Part shown: positions 10,292 through 17,302 of the stretch, in pieces
Layout of the letters: every line of letters begins with the position of its first letter
Position numbering within the stretch: the stretch's first letter is position 1
IMG/VR virus record: IMGVR_UViG_3300044970_001252
Location: 1-26,229 of that record
Strand: one strand, 5' to 3'
DNA length: 26,229 bases
Source of the DNA: a virus
Notes under the pieces: generated by a model
Told to the model about the DNA's origin: nothing
What the model saw: only the letters and a program-made list of their open reading frames with translations
Databases searched by the model: none
Program-made: the position numbers and the translations under genes

Positions 10292-12778
10292 ATGGCCGTG
10301 CAACCACACCCTGCTTCCATCGACGCTTACATCCGCCACGGCTTCGCCTTGGTGCCCATCCCACCTGGACGCAAGGGGCCGCTGGACGCTGGCTGGCAGC
10401 ATCGAGGTGCTGCCCTGCGCTCGCAGTCCGATCTGCCCGCAGGCTACGGGATCGGCCTGGCCCACGCCTACAGCGGCACGATGGCCCTGGACATCGACAA
10501 CTGGGACATGACGGCGGCGGCGCTCGCGCAACACGGCATCGACCTGTCCGCGCTTTATCTGGCCCCCGACGCCGTGGTCATTGACAGTGGGCGTCCTGGG
10601 CATGGGAAGCTGCTCTACGCGATGCCGATGGGGCTGGCGCTGCCGTCCAAACGGGTCAAGGTGGGCAGCACTGTAGTCTATGAGCTACGCTGCTCGACGG
10701 CTGACGGTCTGACGGTGCAGGATGTGCTGCCGCCCACCATACACCCGCAGACGCAGCAGCCCTACCGCTGGGCAGGCAACGGCCACTGGACACGGCTGCC
10801 CCTGCTGCCTGCGGCGCTGCTGGATCACTGGCAGACCCTGCTGACCACGATCGAGCCTGCCAAACCCACGCCGACCGACGAGCCGATCACGGTCAACTGG
10901 GAGGAGATCGAGTCGGCTCTGCTGGCGATCCCCGCCGACTGCTCACGCGATGACTGGGTGAACGTCGGCATGGCCCTGCACTGGGCCGCAGCGCACACTG
11001 ACTCGATGGACAAGGGTCTGGAGGTCTGGAACCGATGGAGCGCCCGATCAGCGGCTAAGTACCCAGGCGAGCGCGAGATCGCCGTGCAGTGGCGATCGTT
11101 CCGTATCGACAAGGGTAACAGGGTCAAGCTGGGCACGCTGTACCATCTGGCCCGCGCTCATGGGTGGGTCAAGCCCGCCCCGGACGTCTCTGCCCTGTTC
11201 AGTGCGAATCCGATGCGAGCGCCCGAGGTGCTGATCGAGGATGGTCGGGTGCCCATCCCCGTGATCAATCTGGAGCACTGGCCTGCACCGCTGGCGCAGC
11301 GAGCGCAGGAGATCGCCGATCACGTCGGCTGTGACCCCCTGGTGCCCCTGCTGGCGGGGCTGTGTACCGTCGCCGGTGCGATGGACGTCCGCTCTAGGCT
11401 CGAACTGATGCCCGGTTATCAGGTGCCGCCTGTTGTCTGGTGTATGACGATCGGCTCGCCTGCCGACAAGAAGTCCCCAGGCTCTGCCCCGATGGTCGAG
11501 CCGCTGCACGCCCTGGAGCGCGAGGATCTGCCGCACTACAAGCAGCGCCTGCTCGACTGGGAGGGCCGCGAGGCCGCATACACTGCGGCAAAGAAACATT
11601 TCCTCGAAGTGAGCGCCTCACCCGACGCGCTGCTGGGCGCACCGCTGCCCCATGTGCCGGATCTGCCCGATCAGCCGCAGCCGCTGCGCCTGAAGGTGTC
11701 GGACACCTCCAGTCAGAAGCTGGTGCGCATGTGTGCCGCGCACCCGAGGGGGCTGCTCTGTTACCTCGACGAGATGGCTTCGTTCTTCAAAAAATTATCG
11801 AGCACCCAGTCGATCGAGGATCGCTCATCGTGGGTGCAGTCCTATGAGGCCCGACGGTATGAGATGGATCGAGTAGGTGCGGGCACGATCATTGCCGAGA
11901 ACTTCGGAGTCTCAATCTACGGTAACACGCAGCCCAAGGTGCTGAGTGCAGCCCTTGAGGCGCTCGCCACCGATGGTCTGCTCCAGCGGTTCATACCGGG
12001 CATCCTGAACCCCCGATTGTCTAAACGGGGGGAGCCGGATCTGTCCGGGGGTGCTACCCGATGGGAGCAGACTGTGCGTCTGGTGTACGCCCTACCCGCG
12101 CAGACCTATACGCTGTCCGACGATGCGCTGCGCCTGTTCCGCGACTATCAGGCGTGGTATGAGCGGGCGAAGCTGTCCGAGGTGCTCTTAGAGGCCGACA
12201 GTGTGCTACTGACCGCCTTTGGTAAGCTGGAGGGGACAACGGCTCGTCTGGCCCTGCTGTTCCACGCGATCGAGGCCCCCTTCAGTCCGACCGTATCAGC
12301 GCAGACCCTGCAACGTGCGATCAGTCTAGTGCGAGAGTACATCATGCCCGCCTGGAGGTATCTCGTCGGCGAGATGACTGGGGGCGCATCGTTCGATCGA
12401 TGGGTGCAGCAGTGGATCCTGTATCACTGTGGCGAGGGGAAACAGACTGTCACCCTGTCCGAGATTAAACGGGGAGCGAGACGTCCGATGGAGCGCATCG
12501 GCAACCCTTACCTACAGGACAGAATGATCATCGATGCGATGGGTCTGCTAGTCGAAGCCGGGTGGGCGATCAGAACCGACGATGGATCGGGCGAGGTGCG
12601 CCACCGGGCAGAGTGGGCACTGAATCCGAAACTGAATCAGGCGTTCCCCCGACAGCGCAAGGAGATTATCAAGGCCCGACAGTTCCAGGAAGATGAGCGC
12701 CGACGGATCGCAGGGATCGAGAGGCGCATCGTGCCAGGATACGATCCGTCCTGGGACGATGAGCGCATGAGCGCATAA
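10292..12778 (+). CDS. Prim-pol primase / DUF3987 helicase-like replication protein
   Basis: The 828-residue protein has three regions. Residues ~5-180 are a prim-pol domain of the archaeo-eukaryotic primase type, with DID (67-69), SGRPGHGK (99-106, His104) and YELR (130-133). Residues ~203-295 match PriCT-2, with WEEIESALLAIPAD and DDWVNVGMALHW. Residues ~310-800 match DUF3987, a RecA-like helicase-associated domain, with Walker-B-like CYLDEM (490-495). The Walker A equivalent, G388-SPAD-K-K-S395, has Lys where the last Gly of GxxxxGKS is expected, so ATP use should be tested. It likely primes and unwinds the phage origin. The ribosome-binding site is weak (GAGA about 10 bases before the ATG). 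It converges on the regulator gene through a shared terminator. Confidence 0.88.
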   Translation: MAVQPHPASIDAYIRHGFALVPIPPGRKGPLDAGWQHRGAALRSQSDLPAGYGIGLAHAYSGTMALDIDNWDMTAAALAQHGIDLSALYLAPDAVVIDSGRPGHGKLLYAMPMGLALPSKRVKVGSTVVYELRCSTADGLTVQDVLPPTIHPQTQQPYRWAGNGHWTRLPLLPAALLDHWQTLLTTIEPAKPTPTDEPITVNWEEIESALLAIPADCSRDDWVNVGMALHWAAAHTDSMDKGLEVWNRWSARSAAKYPGEREIAVQWRSFRIDKGNRVKLGTLYHLARAHGWVKPAPDVSALFSANPMRAPEVLIEDGRVPIPVINLEHWPAPLAQRAQEIADHVGCDPLVPLLAGLCTVAGAMDVRSRLELMPGYQVPPVVWCMTIGSPADKKSPGSAPMVEPLHALEREDLPHYKQRLLDWEGREAAYTAAKKHFLEVSASPDALLGAPLPHVPDLPDQPQPLRLKVSDTSSQKLVRMCAAHPRGLLCYLDEMASFFKKLSSTQSIEDRSSWVQSYEARRYEMDRVGAGTIIAENFGVSIYGNTQPKVLSAALEALATDGLLQRFIPGILNPRLSKRGEPDLSGGATRWEQTVRLVYALPAQTYTLSDDALRLFRDYQAWYERAKLSEVLLEADSVLLTAFGKLEGTTARLALLFHAIEAPFSPTVSAQTLQRAISLVREYIMPAWRYLVGEMTGGASFDRWVQQWILYHCGEGKQTVTLSEIKRGARRPMERIGNPYLQDRMIIDAMGLLVEAGWAIRTDDGSGEVRHRAEWALNPKLNQAFPRQRKEIIKARQFQEDERRRIAGIERRIVPGYDPSWDDERMSA

Positions 12779-12781
12779 AAA

Positions 12782-12803
12782 AAGGGGGCCATCTGGCCCC
12801 CTT
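12782..12803. terminator. Bidirectional intrinsic terminator
   Basis: The perfect stem GGGGGCC (12784-12790) / GGCCCCC (12795-12801) has a 4-base loop and is extended two pairs by flanking AA/TT. On the minus strand it is followed by a run of seven Ts, an excellent terminator for the regulator operon. On the plus strand TTGTTGT follows, weaker but adequate to end the primase gene four bases upstream. Confidence 0.88.
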
Positions 12804-12823
12804 GTTGTCTACAGGGTTGACGA

Positions 12824-13093
12824 TCAGCGAGCACTCTCGATTAGCTGCGAGTGTATCTCCGGGGCCATGACTTCGAGCGCCCCCAGGACATCGAGCAGGC
12901 GAGTCAGGACAGCCCCCGGCTCACGCTGCCCGTCTACCCATGAGCGATAGGTACTAACCGATACCCCGAGGTACCGTGCAGCGTGAGCCGTGGACAGCCC
13001 GAGACGGGCCTGTAGTGCTGCGATACGTTCACCCGTGGGGGTGCTTTGTATCGGGCGCACCCTGGGGCGTCCGGGTGAGGGTTTATCGGTCAT
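12824..13093 (-). CDS. XRE/Cro-like HTH transcription regulator
   Basis: The 89-residue protein has an HTH of the Cro/C1 type at residues ~24-60. It reads ERIAALQARLGLSTAHAARY, then LGVSVSTYRSWVDGQREPG, with the usual Q/A...LGV...TYRxW...R..P pattern. A basic, Pro-rich N-terminal arm (KPSPGRPRVRPIQ) precedes it. It is the last gene of the leftward accessory operon, overlapping the 24-aa membrane ORF by 11 bp and ending just before the shared terminator. The small size without a C-terminal oligomerisation domain is more like Cro than CI. It may bind the repeated sites at 14665-14981 and shut off its own promoter; this is inference. Confidence 0.83.
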   Translation of the reverse strand: MTDKPSPGRPRVRPIQSTPTGERIAALQARLGLSTAHAARYLGVSVSTYRSWVDGQREPGAVLTRLLDVLGALEVMAPEIHSQLIESAR

Positions 13094-13157
13094 CGTTGAA
13101 CCCCATGAAATACAGGATCAGCGCTGCCACTAGGGCAGCGAGTAGCGCGAGGATCAC
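13083..13157 (-). CDS. Putative 24-aa single-pass membrane microprotein
   Basis: This very small ORF begins with GTG (13155-13157) inside a GTGA overlap with the upstream gene's stop, behind GGGGGTG as a possible ribosome-binding site. It ends 11 bp inside the HTH gene. The predicted peptide is VILALLAALVAALILYF followed by MGFNDDR, an almost uninterrupted hydrophobic helix with a short charged end. Its tight coupling on both sides argues for translation. A role in membrane modification or regulation is possible, but nothing in the sequence identifies one. It is too short for homology to be reliable. Confidence 0.5.
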   Translation of the reverse strand: MILALLAALVAALILYFMGFNDDR

Positions 13158-13447
13158 TTGATCACCCCCGCAGCGCGAAACGCAAGGTGCCAGTATCGGG
13201 CGTGTCGATCCGGCTGCGTGATGACATAATGAACCGATTCCTCCACTAGGCCCCCAGTCTGATAGTCTGGCTCGCTGGAGACTGTGACCCATTCGAAGGG
13301 TTCACCCCGAGCGGGGTAGCACGATGGCACCCCGTACCGGATGGCGTCGACTAGCTCTCGAAACGATAGGTGCTCGGTGTCTGACCAATCGTCGATCAAT
13401 TCCCCTTCGTCATCATAGGTTGCAAATACGCGATTAATGGTGATCAT
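13154..13447 (-). CDS. Unknown phage protein (97 aa)
   Basis: The start is the ATG at 13447, chosen because AAAGG lies 6 bases upstream; the longer frame to 13627 overlaps the previous gene entirely. The protein reads MITINRVFATYDDEGE, then LSFRELVDAIRYGVPSCYP, WVTVSSEPDYQTG, SVHYVI, and ends HARYWHLAFRAAGVIK. This SFRELV...S.P..G...W.....DY.TG....HY...RYW pattern is familiar from uncharacterised phage proteins. No catalytic motif is clear. It is followed by the microprotein through a GTGA overlap. Confidence 0.8.
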   Translation of the reverse strand: MITINRVFATYDDEGELIDDWSDTEHLSFRELVDAIRYGVPSCYPARGEPFEWVTVSSEPDYQTGGLVEESVHYVITQPDRHARYWHLAFRAAGVIK

Positions 13448-13458
13448 TTTTCGACCTT

Positions 13459-13776
13459 TCATGAGCTGTAGGGGATGACATGCTCGGAGAGCATTTCCGG
13501 CCCGGTAGGCTTGCGCCAAAGGGTCGCCGATGCGGGGCCACGCATTACCCCGTCGAGCTTGCTCACGCTGACGTAGTGCGTGGGACTTTGCCACGTTTGA
13601 CGTGGGCATGATCGCGGGAAATGCCACACAATCGGAGCGGCCGCAGGGTGATGCGGATCGTTAGTAAACGCGAGCACGAGCTTGCGCGCAATTTCCTGCG
13701 CGAGCTTTTGCGTGGGGACGATTAGGTTTTCCGTGTGCGCGCCACCGCGCACGCCAAATTCGATGACGTATTTCAT
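13459..13776 (-). CDS. Unknown protein (105 aa)
   Basis: This unknown protein opens MKYVIEFGVRGGAHTENLIV, an alternating pattern suggesting a beta-strand start, then TQKLAQEIARKLVLAFTND as a helix. It then contains WHFPRSCPRQTWQSPTHYVS and a Trp/Pro-rich end. The overall arrangement of strand, helix and basic loops recalls small phage proteins that pair with the DUF7227-like gene upstream. It starts 2 bp after that gene's stop and is 11 bp ahead of the next start. No function can be assigned. Confidence 0.74.
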   Translation of the reverse strand: MKYVIEFGVRGGAHTENLIVPTQKLAQEIARKLVLAFTNDPHHPAAAPIVWHFPRSCPRQTWQSPTHYVSVSKLDGVMRGPASATLWRKPTGPEMLSEHVIPYSS

Positions 13777-13778
13777 GA

Positions 13779-14459
13779 TTACCCTTTCAGAATAGGAACA
13801 ACGCGACGGGCTTTCGCATCGGTCACGCGGGCACGCGTGCCATGCGCACGGAATCCGATGATCACGCGACGATCAGCGCGAGCGCACAGCCCACAATCGG
13901 CACATGTGATCTCATCGCGAGTCTGCGCTGGGCAAACGATGATCGTCCGGCCGGCGGGCGTGTAGGTTTTCTCGGGGCAGTCGATCGGCACGATGGCGGT
14001 CACGGGCAAGCCGGTATCGGCCAGGGTATCAGCCTCTCCAGCATCGTCGGCCGATAGATTGACGGTAAAGCCCCAGTCGATCGCATGGCGCGCCCATTTG
14101 ATCGCGTCCGCGCTTTTCTTATGGGTGTAGGTGAATCCGCGCTTGCCAATGTTCGCATGGACAATATGCCCGAGCGCGACCGGATCGACTGATTCACCCG
14201 AGCCAGGGAGATCACCAGCGACATTGAAGCGCCACAGCTGCCCGGCGGGCAGAGCCTGGACGCTAGCGCAGAGCGCATCGATCGAACCACCACGGGCGGG
14301 CACCTTATCCCACGTCATGCGGGTATAGAAGTCTTCGGCATAGCAGTCTGCCCGATAGTGCGGGCAGCTGGGCGGGCATGTATCGCGCTCGGAATAAACG
14401 ACGGGGATAGGACCGGTTTTCCGGTTTCCTGATTCAGGGATGAAATGGTAGGCGGGCAT
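13779..14459 (-). CDS. Cys-rich phage protein, DUF7227-like (226 aa)
   Basis: The 226-residue protein has an N-terminal cluster CPPSCPHYRADCYAED (28-43) and a C-terminal cluster CADCGLCARADRR, which together could bind a metal or Fe-S centre. Between them are GQLWRFNVAGDLPGSGE, RGFTYTHKKSADAIKWA and FTVNLSADDAGEAD, conserved in a widespread phage family that I know as DUF7227 (name from memory). The pattern of a CxxxC-type start followed by alternating strands and helices resembles radical-SAM-like barrels of phage Gp37/Gp68 proteins, but a classic CxxxCxxC is not present. Function is unknown. GGAG nine bases upstream supports the ATG at 14459. Confidence 0.75.
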   Translation of the reverse strand: MPAYHFIPESGNRKTGPIPVVYSERDTCPPSCPHYRADCYAEDFYTRMTWDKVPARGGSIDALCASVQALPAGQLWRFNVAGDLPGSGESVDPVALGHIVHANIGKRGFTYTHKKSADAIKWARHAIDWGFTVNLSADDAGEADTLADTGLPVTAIVPIDCPEKTYTPAGRTIIVCPAQTRDEITCADCGLCARADRRVIIGFRAHGTRARVTDAKARRVVPILKG

Positions 14460-14481
14460 GACGTTAGTCTCCAGGGTGGGG

Positions 14482-14604
14482 TTAGATAAACGCAGCGAAG
14501 ATCAGACCGAGCAGCGCACCGAGTGCAACGCACACAGCGATATCGGTGCGCCCCTCGGGGCGGGTGTTTTCGAGGTGTTTCAGTAAGTGATTGTCGGGGC
14601 GCAT
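14482..14604 (-). CDS. Putative 40-aa single-pass membrane microprotein
   Basis: This ORF is first after the leftward promoter and has a good ribosome-binding site (CTGGAG, 6 bases before the ATG at 14602-14604). The peptide has a charged N-terminal half, MRPDNHLLKHLENTRPEGRT, then DIAVCVALGALLGLIFAAFI, a single membrane helix that ends the protein. The likely topology is N-terminus in the cytoplasm. It is the first product of the operon, so it may be made in quantity early in infection. Its function is unknown; membrane microproteins of this size in phages include exclusion and lysis-control proteins. Confidence 0.65.
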   Translation of the reverse strand: MRPDNHLLKHLENTRPEGRTDIAVCVALGALLGLIFAAFI

Positions 14605-14623
14605 GGTGGTCTCCAGGGTTAGC

Positions 14624-14642
14624 GCGCTGCGTTGTGCAGCGC
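14624..14642 (-). promoter_or_regulatory. Inverted repeat at the start of the leftward transcript
   Basis: GCGCTGC (14624-14630) and GCAGCGC (14636-14642) are perfect complements with a 5-base loop. The site lies directly downstream of the -10 element, at about +2 to +20 of the predicted transcript. It could be an operator, or a 5' hairpin that stabilises the mRNA. Confidence 0.55.
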
Positions 14643-14650
14643 ATGGATGA

Positions 14651-14679
14651 ATCGTAGGGTACTAGGCGCAGTGTGTCAA
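14651..14679 (-). promoter_or_regulatory. Strong leftward sigma70 promoter of the accessory operon
   Basis: On the minus strand a perfect TTGACA (14674-14679), a 17-bp spacer and TACGAT (14651-14656) form the best promoter in the window. Transcription would begin near 14644, about 40 bases before the first ATG (14604). One copy of the repeated GACACACTGCGCC motif (14665-14677) covers the -35 and half of the spacer, so a protein bound there would block polymerase. Confidence 0.82.
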
Positions 14680-14860
14680 TACGATTATTGTGAATTGATT
14701 GTGTCAGTGTATCTATGGTGATCGGGGTAGATTGTCTTACGATTGCCTGCGACACTGTGACTCGGGATGCGGGGGGTGGTTTTGTCCATGTTTTAAAAAA
14801 AGATGACTCGAACGGGTTTTTCTGTCAGTCAAAAGTCACCCTGTCGCACCCGTTCCCCCG

Positions 14861-14981
14861 GACACACTGCGCCATTGTTCCCCCGTCTCATGCGTACACA
14901 CTGCGCCATCGCACCCGATGCACCCCGATGCGCTGCGCCAATGGGCGCAGGGTGCTAGATACGCTGCGCCTATGGGTGCGC
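14861..14981 (+). repeat. Four directly repeated CTGCGCC iterons, about 31-34 bp apart
   Basis: CTGCGCC cores begin at 14867, 14901, 14933 and 14964, spaced 34, 32 and 31 bp, close to three helical turns. Copies 1 and 2 share a 14-bp identity (ACACACTGCGCCAT). Copies 3 and 4 share CGCTGCGCC-A/T-ATGGG. Copy 3 also forms a perfect palindrome, CTGCGCC-AATG-GGCGCAG (14933-14950). An inverted copy sits on the leftward promoter (14665-14677). Confidence 0.75.
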
Positions 14982-15060
14982 TGTCGCCCTGGGGGCGGGG
15001 GTGTAGGGGTGCCCCATCGACGCGAGCGGCGCAGGTAACGAAAACGCATACCCCGCATCA

Positions 15061-15099
15061 AATTTTTCATTTTTTCTGTAAACCCTTAAACCCTTAAAC
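15061..15099. other. AT-rich tract with tandem AAACCCTT units
   Basis: AATTTTTCATTTTTTCTG is followed by AAACCCTT twice plus AAAC (15080-15099). It is the most AT-rich and T-tract-rich piece of this control region, next to the iteron-like repeats. An easily melted element beside iterons is typical of replication origins; here that is inference. Confidence 0.5.
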
Positions 15100-15102
15100 G
15101 CA

Positions 15103-15147
15103 TTGCACCATCTACCCCTATCACTCTCCCCTTGCACCATCTACCCC
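15103..15147 (+). repeat. 16-bp direct repeat upstream of the small terminase
   Basis: TTGCACCATCTACCCC occurs at 15103-15118 and exactly again at 15132-15147, 29 bp apart. The second copy ends 20 bp before the small-terminase ATG. Its TGCACCATC part resembles the TGCGCCATC of the upstream iterons. Binding sites for the small terminase are often near its gene, so this may be part of a packaging site (inference). Confidence 0.8.
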
Positions 15148-15167
15148 CTTCCTCTTAAACTCGAACT

Positions 15168-15719
15168 ATGAGCATTGCCCATACTCCTTCAGTCGTGCAG
15201 TCGTCATTACCAGACTGGCTCACTCCCTCGTCTGACCAACCTATCGTTGATCAGTCAAAACGTCGCAAGTTGACCAGAGAGCTTCAAGAGGCAACGTTCA
15301 ACGCCATGTTTGAGCGAGTCCTCGATGAGGTCGTCAAGGGCCGAACGCTCAAGTCAATCGTGGCCGATGACGTACGCCCCGTTGACTACAGTGCTTTTTA
15401 TTCGTGGATCAAAAAGGATCCGCAGCGCCTGGAGCGTTACAAGGAAGCCAAGGAACTCAGGACGGAGTGGTGGGCAGGGCGCGTCATCGAGATCGCCGAG
15501 GGTGATGATCTGGAGGATGTGCAGCGCAGCAAACTCAAGATCGACACTTATAAGTGGCTCATGGGTGCCGACAACCGTAAGACATACGGCGACACCAAGC
15601 AGGTTGAGATCAACCAGTCGATCAGTGTCCTGTCGGCGCTGGAGGCAGCGCAGGCGCGGATCACACTCGATATGGTCGATGACGCCCCCTACCCTGCCCT
15701 ACCCAACGACGAGGGCTGA
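15168..15719 (+). CDS. Terminase small subunit (Sf6/P22-type)
   Basis: The 183-residue protein recognises the phage genome and starts packaging with the large subunit. Residues ~35-90 hold a helix-turn-helix-like region (EATFNAMFERVLDEVVKGRT, then SIVADDVRPVDYSAFYSWIK). Residues ~100-145 carry the Sf6-type oligomerisation segment RVIEIAEGDD...VQRSKLKIDTYKWLMGAD...YGDTKQV. There is no clear Shine-Dalgarno before the ATG at 15168; the leader is CT-rich, which is odd for a first gene, so a different or leaderless start is possible. It lies 2 bp ahead of the large subunit. Confidence 0.9.
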   Translation: MSIAHTPSVVQSSLPDWLTPSSDQPIVDQSKRRKLTRELQEATFNAMFERVLDEVVKGRTLKSIVADDVRPVDYSAFYSWIKKDPQRLERYKEAKELRTEWWAGRVIEIAEGDDLEDVQRSKLKIDTYKWLMGADNRKTYGDTKQVEINQSISVLSALEAAQARITLDMVDDAPYPALPNDEG

Positions 15720-15721
15720 CC

Positions 15722-17302
15722 GTGCCTGCACAGCGTCCGCGCTACAGCGCCGAGGAGGAGGAGCTGCTGATGACCCAGATGTGGTCATCGCACATCGCCG
15801 ATGACCCGGAGACGTTTGTCATGTTTGCGTTTCCGTGGGGGCAGAAGAACACACCCCTCGAACACTTCAGCGGGCCGCGCAGATGGCAGCGTGAGGTGTT
15901 GCGTGACATCGCGGCGCACATCAGAGCCAACAGGTCTGCGCCACTTAATCTAAAGGCGCTGCGTGAAGCCGTCTCGTCAGGCCGGGGGATCGGTAAGAGC
16001 GCACTGGTCAGTTGGCTAATCCTTTGGATGCTGACCACTCGGATCGGCTCGTCTGTCATCGTGAGTGCCAACAGCGAGCCACAGCTTCGGTCGGTCACTT
16101 GGGGTGAGTTGACTAAGTGGGCCACCATGACCATCAACGCCCACTGGTGGGAGGTCAGTGCTACGAAGCTCATCCCCGCAGCGTGGCTGACCGCACTGGT
16201 CGAGAGGGATCTTCAGAAGGGCACCCGGTACTGGGGTGCTGAGGGGAAGCTGTGGAGCGAGGAGAACCCGGACGCCTATGCCGGGGTGCACAATCACGAC
16301 GGCATGATGGTCATCTTCGACGAGGCCAGCGGCATCCCGGACAGTATCTGGTCAGTTGCCTCGGGGTTCTTTACCGAGCCGATCGTCGATCGGTACTGGT
16401 TCGCGTTTAGTAACCCGCGCCGCCCGAGCGGGTACTTCTATGAGTGTTTCCACTCGCGCCGTGAGTTCTGGCACACCCGGCAGATCGACAGTCGCTCGGT
16501 CGAGGGGACGGACAAGGGGATTTATGACCAGATCATCGCCGAGCACGGCGAGGACAGTCGGGAGGCTCGCGTAGAGGTCTACGGTCAGTTTCCGACAACC
16601 GGGGACGACCAGTTCATCGACTTGACTCGAGTAGACGAGGCCATGCGCCGTGAGCCGGTCAAAGACCCGTCTGCGCCGATCGTCATCGGTGTTGACCCGG
16701 CACGCAGCGGCACCGATAGCACCGTGATCGCGGTACGTCAGGGGCGCACACTGCTCGCGCTGCGGCGGTACCAGGGCGACGACACTATGACGGTCGTCGG
16801 GCACGTTATCCGTGCGATCGACGAGTACCGGCCAGCACTGACCGTCATCGACGAGGGTGGGCTGGGCGCTGGTGTACTTGACCGTCTCAAAGAGCAGCGT
16901 TACAAGGTCAGAGGGGTGAACTTCGCGTGGCGGTCAAGTAGACCCGTGATGTATGGGAACAAGCGGGCTGAGATATGGGGTGCGCTCAAGGAGTGGCTGC
17001 TGACCGCCTCGCTGCCCGAGGACAAGACGCTGCGTGATGATCTGACCGGGCCACGGGTCAAGCCGAACAGCGCGGGGGCAATCTTCCTGGAGAGTAAGAA
17101 AGAGATGAAGTCCAGGGGGCTGGCCTCGCCCGACGCAGCCGATGCAATTGCTGTGACCTTTGCGTTTCCCATCGCAACGGATATGATGGGTCACTTGGCA
17201 GCACCGGGTTACGGTGCCACAATGCCGTCGCATTACGCTACGCCGGTGGTTAACTACTGGAACGCGGCACCGCAAAAGGCCCAATATGGCACGAATTTCT
17301 AA
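15722..17302 (+). CDS. Terminase large subunit (packaging ATPase and nuclease)
   Basis: The 526-residue motor pumps DNA into the head and cuts it. The ATPase domain has Walker A SGRGIGKS (86-93), Walker B MMVIFDEAS (195-203, Glu201 catalytic) and a coupling motif FSNP (229-232). The RNase-H-like nuclease shows VDPARSG with Asp325, VIDEGG with Asp377 and SPDAADAIAV with a third Asp near residue 473. The GTG start at 15722 follows CGAGGG with good spacing. The last 17 bp overlap the portal start. Length and motif order match P22/Sf6-like and related headful terminases; the strategy itself (cos or pac) cannot be read from this. Confidence 0.95.
   Translation: MPAQRPRYSAEEEELLMTQMWSSHIADDPETFVMFAFPWGQKNTPLEHFSGPRRWQREVLRDIAAHIRANRSAPLNLKALREAVSSGRGIGKSALVSWLILWMLTTRIGSSVIVSANSEPQLRSVTWGELTKWATMTINAHWWEVSATKLIPAAWLTALVERDLQKGTRYWGAEGKLWSEENPDAYAGVHNHDGMMVIFDEASGIPDSIWSVASGFFTEPIVDRYWFAFSNPRRPSGYFYECFHSRREFWHTRQIDSRSVEGTDKGIYDQIIAEHGEDSREARVEVYGQFPTTGDDQFIDLTRVDEAMRREPVKDPSAPIVIGVDPARSGTDSTVIAVRQGRTLLALRRYQGDDTMTVVGHVIRAIDEYRPALTVIDEGGLGAGVLDRLKEQRYKVRGVNFAWRSSRPVMYGNKRAEIWGALKEWLLTASLPEDKTLRDDLTGPRVKPNSAGAIFLESKKEMKSRGLASPDAADAIAVTFAFPIATDMMGHLAAPGYGATMPSHYATPVVNYWNAAPQKAQYGTNF

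Follow-up and report, generated by a model that had tools for sequence, protein, structure and literature searches.

Clade-specific repeated sites as candidate operators of an XRE-like autoregulator in a family of uncultivated Sf6/P22-like podoviruses

Aca autorepressors use an inverted-repeat site located inside the core promoter of their operon (PMC9410906). In the E. coli antitoxin MqsA, the residues Asn97 and Arg101 were reported to contact the sequence ACCT(N)3AGGT (PMC4901048). Repressors of the mycobacteriophage L5 type have stoperators, many asymmetric sites of ~13 bp (PMC9283540). The locus described here is on an IMG/VR virus contig of 26.2 kb that comes from an uncultivated family of Sf6/P22-like podoviruses; the whole stretch of 26,229 nt is called the window below. 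The nearest named genome is that of DSL-LC05, a metagenome-assembled phage placed in a proposed family, 'Luchaoviridae' (PMC10611076). Repeated sites between two divergent operons of the window are, in our judgement, likely to be operators of an 89-aa XRE-like protein, which would repress its own leftward promoter (P_left) and influence the terminase promoter.

The rightward operon starts with the gene of an Sf6-like terminase small subunit (TerS, 15168-15719, plus strand; PF20901, phrog_1482), followed by that of the large subunit (TerL, 15722-17302, plus strand), and a P22-like portal is also encoded among the rightward genes from 15168. The leftward operon, read on the minus strand from 14459 to 12824, comprises a DUF7227 gene (13779-14459), the largest of its 13083-14459 portion, then small ORFs, and finally the XRE-like gene (12824-13093); a primase-polymerase/DUF3987 gene is its convergent partner. 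The content of this operon differs among relatives, apart from the helix-turn-helix (HTH) gene, which is constant. The DUF7227 protein shares 76% identity with its counterpart in DSL-LC05 and is common to about two dozen relatives, other genes being found elsewhere; it is a possible anti-defence or takeover protein. PADLOC returned no match on the leftward operon, nor did blastn of the 1-kb region against GenBank phages, and Rfam gave nothing meaningful (a single sub-threshold match, 19.8 bits vs 44). A strong hairpin (AAGGGGGCCAGATGGCCCCCTT) at 12782-12803 separates the primase gene from the regulator gene that converges on it, and is probably a terminator, perhaps for both directions.

Re-checking the sequence placed every site at the coordinates given in the original prediction, which had been made from this sequence alone. 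Six copies of the (G)ACACACTGCGCC-type site lie within 14665-14970. One of them, the exact 13-mer GACACACTGCGCC at 14665-14677 (minus strand), covers the -35 and the spacer of P_left, a sigma-70-like promoter (TTGACA-17-TACGAT, 14651-14679, minus strand, 10/12 matches), and is a candidate operator. Four others form an array on the plus strand, with the exact 13-mer GACACACTGCGCC at 14861-14873, TACACACTGCGCC at 14895-14907 with one change from it, GATGCGCTGCGCC at 14927-14950 (core CTGCGCC at 14933-14939), and GATACGCTGCGCC at 14958-14970 (core at 14964-14970). The third of these includes CTGCGCC-AATG-GGCGCAG at 14933-14950, a palindrome that is perfect, as had been claimed. An extra CTGCGCC core absent from the original prediction was found at 15028-15034 on the minus strand, and a weak, degenerate operator-like sequence (AACGCATTGCACC, 9/13 match) lies at 15097-15109 on the plus strand, upstream of a putative TerS promoter (TTGCAC-18-TAAACT, 15132-15161, plus strand) that is below the scanner threshold and was deduced from the relatives. 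The predicted leftward promoter was the sole promoter-like match that the scanner returned in 12700-15250. Since shuffles gave a mean of 1.5 promoter-like matches, the P_left call leans on conservation in the relative L004 (TerS 72% and HTH protein 84% identical), which keeps the same promoter, the same site and the same overlap between them.

CTGCGCC occurs 26 times in the whole window vs 7.8 expected, mostly within genes, and because the word itself is so frequent, clustering is the meaningful statistic. Six copies of the 10-mer with at most one mismatch fall within 720 bp, giving a score of 18.2 vs a maximum of 8.4 in 40 dinucleotide shuffles. The five best matches in the window to a position weight matrix, built from those same five best-scoring sites, are all located within 14665-14970, and the next ones (16.4 and 14.3 bits) are single copies within genes. 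The exact repeat of the 13-mer alone was dropped as evidence, such pairs being expected by chance in 26 kb according to our own estimate. De novo motif discovery by EM returned 20-27 sites of low information in each locus, which was too permissive, and k-mer enrichment against shuffles was used instead.

Relatives were collected as 78 loci found by a TerS search and 78 found with an alignment of the HTH protein; after merging, they gave 80 distinct TerS-upstream regions, 58 of them with the HTH gene, and included one near-identical contig (L003/L086). The same layout recurs across the 80 regions while the repeated word differs by clade, being CCCANTGGG, CCCATTGA, GCCAATG, GCACCAAT, GGACCAAT, CACTGCGCC or TGTACCCC. 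Three loci (L013, L017, L061) carry 13-16 copies of AACCCATTGA; further clade words are GCACCAAT, TGCGCCAATG and GGACCAAT, and the DSL-LC05 group has the palindrome ACCCANTGGGT. In the complete DSL-LC05 genome, 8 of the 11 near-operators and all 4 perfect ones fall within about 0.5 kb. Simple tandem repeats (CACCCTGG, GGGGCCA) replace a clear operator array upstream of TerS in L009/L010, L044, L058 and L065, suggesting repeat slippage there. Such repeats, together with the excess of CTGCGCC over the whole window, are what could be expected if the sites had arisen by chance or as low-complexity repeats of GC-rich DNA. However, the best repeated word exceeded all 40 shuffles in 72 of the 80 regions, and the site is found again at the P_left of L004, which makes this explanation exceedingly improbable.

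The four array sites were originally described as an iteron array. Their start-to-start spacing is indeed 34, 32 and 31 bp in the window, but it is irregular in the relatives, and iterons of fixed spacing were rejected. This irregularity also weighs on the possibility that the array is a replication origin, in which iterons, a G-run and an A/T-tract (about 15060-15080) would be bound by the HTH protein or the primase-polymerase. Iteron-like repeats do stand beside a conserved G-rich then A/T-rich element in this family. Nevertheless, the extremes of cumulative GC skew lie off the array in both the window and DSL-LC05, and the sites overlap promoters, so that we regard an origin as unlikely.

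The 89-aa regulator matches Pfam HTH_31 with 31.6 bits vs a cut-off of 27. Its AlphaFold2 model is a five-helix domain of mean pLDDT 87, preceded by an N-terminal tail of low confidence, and its fold matches, all of modest score, include HigA2, RsaL, MqsA, Aca2, Aca10 and P22 C2 (best VIA Z 8.0); no Foldseek match of this model reaches an E-value of 0.001. Both sequence family and fold place the protein among the XRE/Cro-C1-type HTH proteins. Helix 3 corresponds to residues 46-53 (12935-12958), with S51 (12941-12943) as the key residue. Ahead of the HTH domain, most window-side relatives have an AT-hook-like GRPR at residues 8-11, missing from that position in L013, L017 and L061; on the DSL side, several of the proteins instead carry a motif of GRP type close to the C-terminus.

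The search for co-conservation of motif and HTH gene that the original prediction had called for returned the gene in 32/32 loci that were found through TerS alone and span TerS to the primase, always between these two genes and on the opposite strand; none of these 32 loci keeps the motif and lacks the HTH gene. A search with the HTH profile found exactly one copy per record in 14/14 long records. This constancy bears on whether another protein, either another product of the operon or a host factor, binds the array. The binding of the array by the regulator is itself something that we infer, which leaves room for another binder, but the other operon genes vary between relatives, and the sites diverge from clade to clade more than binding by a conserved host factor would allow. 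We consider such a binder very unlikely.

Sites and helix 3 of the regulator diversify together by clade. With word classes set after the data had been viewed, the variable centre of helix 3 (R-x-W) follows the word: RKW occurs with CCCANTGGG in 26/26 loci (L123 included), compared with 0/32 loci without RKW; RHW occurs with GCACCAAT in 5/5 loci (5-6 copies each), and RSW with CACTGCGCC in 2/2 loci, the window and L004 (4 copies each). GNW (L121) is found with TGTACCCC, and RNW with the CCCATTGA/GCCAATG types in TWRNW loci; two QSW loci (L010, L018) and five TFRNW loci are without a clear dominant word. The loci are related and not independent, and because the RKW loci are essentially one TerS-defined group, the link between RKW and CCCANTGGG may rest on few evolutionary changes. 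Using the same classes, residue 51 is the HTH column best associated with the word (NMI 0.87; 68 columns, 23 representatives), and four of the five top columns are in helix 3 (residues 51, 49, 53 and 47). HMMER aligns residue 51 to Arg101 of MqsA and residue 47 to its Asn97, the MqsA numbering being assigned by us from the published residues.

TerS, encoded next to the array, was used as a control. In locus-level Mantel tests, the motif correlates with the helix (r=0.55; 0.415 given TerS) better than with TerS given the helix (0.165). At clade level, the values are 0.33 (p=0.03) for TerS given the HTH protein and 0.20 (p=0.10) for the HTH protein given TerS, and TerS has columns associated with the word as strongly as those of the HTH protein. 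For these two reasons, covariation alone leaves TerS in play. The array, which directly precedes TerS/TerL, could then be a packaging initiation site (pac) bound by TerS, its overlap with a promoter being incidental. At locus level, however, the HTH helix accounts for the word better than TerS. The TerS of the window is Sf6-like, a headful packaging type. In Sf6-like phages pac lies within the TerS gene, which also speaks against a pac upstream of it. The position of the sites relative to promoters adds to these objections: several clades have clade-type sites over the leftward promoter, and relatives of the DSL-LC05 group have one next to the late promoter as well. We therefore hold a pac site to be improbable, and what argues for the HTH protein is the combination of its constant presence, the position of the associated residues in helix 3 and the promoter overlap, not covariation alone.

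The overlap takes several forms. P_left of the window and of L004 carries the site on its -35 and spacer, whereas in DSL-LC05, L150, L155 and L158 the site is in the spacer beside the -10 (TTGACA-ATnnnn-ACCCANTGGGT-TAnnnT), and in the CCCATTGA clade it lies over the -35 or the -10 of the leftward promoter. In a held-out analysis, words learned only from the middle of the array scored higher in the P_left region of their own genome than in at least 90% of the foreign ones; this held for 16 of 50 loci, where 10% would be expected (p=1.7e-5, a value that is optimistic because the loci are related), and for the window no foreign region reached the score of its own P_left; on the TerS-proximal side, the analysis was not significant. 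In 14 of 37 loci, vs 8.2 expected, a downstream-learned word falls on a strong leftward promoter (p=0.019), and over all predicted promoters the comparison is not significant (14 vs 12.5 expected), so that this result is fragile, being significant only after restriction to strong promoters and downstream-learned words. The recurrence of mid-array words at the P_left of the same locus is a pattern that fits autorepression. The originally predicted repression of the operon by its own regulator is made more plausible by the constant HTH gene, the covarying helix 3 and the overlap of sites with leftward promoters in several clades.

The original prediction also had the regulator steering the rightward operon. 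In most genomes of the DSL-LC05 group, a AACCCANTGGGT site precedes the TerS -35 by a few to about 20 bp, where a bound protein could either activate or repress, and such a ACCCANTGGGT site upstream of the TerS promoter supports the idea in that clade. In the window, late control is suggested by position, since the sequence at 15097-15109, where relatives have a clear operator, is only a 9/13 match.

In our best reading, the regulator is an Aca/Cro-like autoregulator that would repress P_left and probably also control the terminase/late operon. The target of the protein, probably a dimer, would be a pseudo-palindrome (GRCRCA-N-TGYGYC in this phage), of which ACCCANTGGGT in the relatives is an ancestral-looking form, and helix 3 of the protein would enter the major groove. 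Once bound at 14665-14677, the regulator would mask the -35 and spacer of P_left and so turn off its own operon of variable and probably early accessory genes, as with Aca and Cro-type regulators. The four array sites may add binding sites between both promoters, for cooperativity, bridging or titration. Through an operator upstream of the terminase promoter, the same protein could influence late transcription, most likely as an early repressor and/or a late activator.

Other elements surround these sites. Between P_left and the array, inverted arms (TGCGACACTGTGACT at 14748-14762, AGTCACCCTGTCGCA at 14834-14848) lie about 70 nt apart; the window's own pair is weak (score 9 vs 6-8 in the null), and in L012, L019, L024, L033 and L148 the arms reach 24-29 bp and are clade-specific yet complementary. 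A hairpin at 14624-14642 (GCGCTGC-GTTGT-GCAGCGC in plus-strand reading; z -3.4) would form at the extreme 5' end of the leftward transcript. At the same place, many window-side relatives have different stems (GGGTCAA...TTGACCC, GGATCA...TGATCC), and the changes look compensatory. Ahead of the TerS promoter, most relatives share a conserved element (about 14990-15080 in the window) made up of a G-run, CCCATCGAC...CAAAACG...CCCGC and then AAATTTTTCATTTTTT. Another word, ACCATCTACCCC, is also repeated and lies by the TerS promoter at 15107-15118 and 15136-15147, and near P_left at 14724-14735, inverted and with one change.

Comparison between relatives makes the regulatory reading appear well supported, and the interest of the locus is the family-wide co-diversification, which is beyond the reach of single-sequence reading. 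A repressor and its operator must change together, and the usual study material for this is a handful of phages or engineered mutants. With about 58 genomes having the regulator and a candidate array, some seven site types, and residue 51 and its neighbours as predicted determinants, this family offers a natural experiment. It also opens a way into gene regulation in a group of freshwater phages of which we found no cultured, studied member, and the promoter sites offer a route to accessory, possibly anti-defence, operons. We propose tentatively, and with more doubt than for the operators themselves, that throughout this family of podoviruses, which apparently do not integrate, a single autoregulator acting at up to about 16 operators couples the shut-off of the accessory operon to the start of late/packaging transcription, and that at least 7 operator types arose largely through residue 51 and its helix-3 neighbours. 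If so, a possibly anti-defence accessory operon would be shut off by an autoregulator, and nature would have provided, within one family, a series of orthogonal repressor-operator pairs that perhaps define superinfection-exclusion groups in the absence of lysogeny.

Among known systems, the immunity regions of lambda and P22 (CI/C2, Cro) share with this locus divergent promoters, several operators and an XRE-type regulator. Relatives here differ in operator and recognition helix as heteroimmune phages do, and P22 C2 is a Foldseek match. In contrast to these regions, we found no tyrosine integrase, and the rightward operon carries terminase/late genes and not early ones. The HTH profile finds one such regulator per record, although an unrelated second regulator may exist (in DSL-LC05, 10718-11107 bears the annotation of a putative regulator), so that two opposed regulators competing for shared operators remain conceivable. 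A search limited to tyrosine integrases (PF00589) returned none in 14 family records, several of them genome-sized, and was positive in all 14 known genomes used as control. At the sensitivity of the tool, no relative of the regulator was detected in 84,980 bacterial and archaeal genomes. The original idea of a compact switch is, on these two grounds, unsupported in the sense of a lysogeny switch.

MqsA is the best sequence match of the regulator among solved structures (E about 7e-5), and its Asn97 and Arg101 align with residues 47 and 51 of the regulator, both of them variable. The regulator differs from it in having only 89 aa, without a zinc domain and without an MqsR toxin partner; membership of the MqsA family was rejected (NCBIfam score 16.9 vs a cut-off of 61.8). 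With the L5 stoperators, the array shares the many asymmetric repressor sites of ~13 bp, but the sites here are confined to one intergenic region and not spread over the genome. The likeness to Aca systems is twofold: a small HTH gene ends an operon of small variable genes, and a site lies in the core promoter; Aca2 and Aca10 are also among the fold matches of the regulator (VIA Z 6.7 and 6.6). The locus differs from Aca systems in being without a recognised acr gene (the searches included no anti-CRISPR library), in its four further array sites, to which relatives add an operator beside the divergent late promoter, and in a site sequence that varies by clade within one family.
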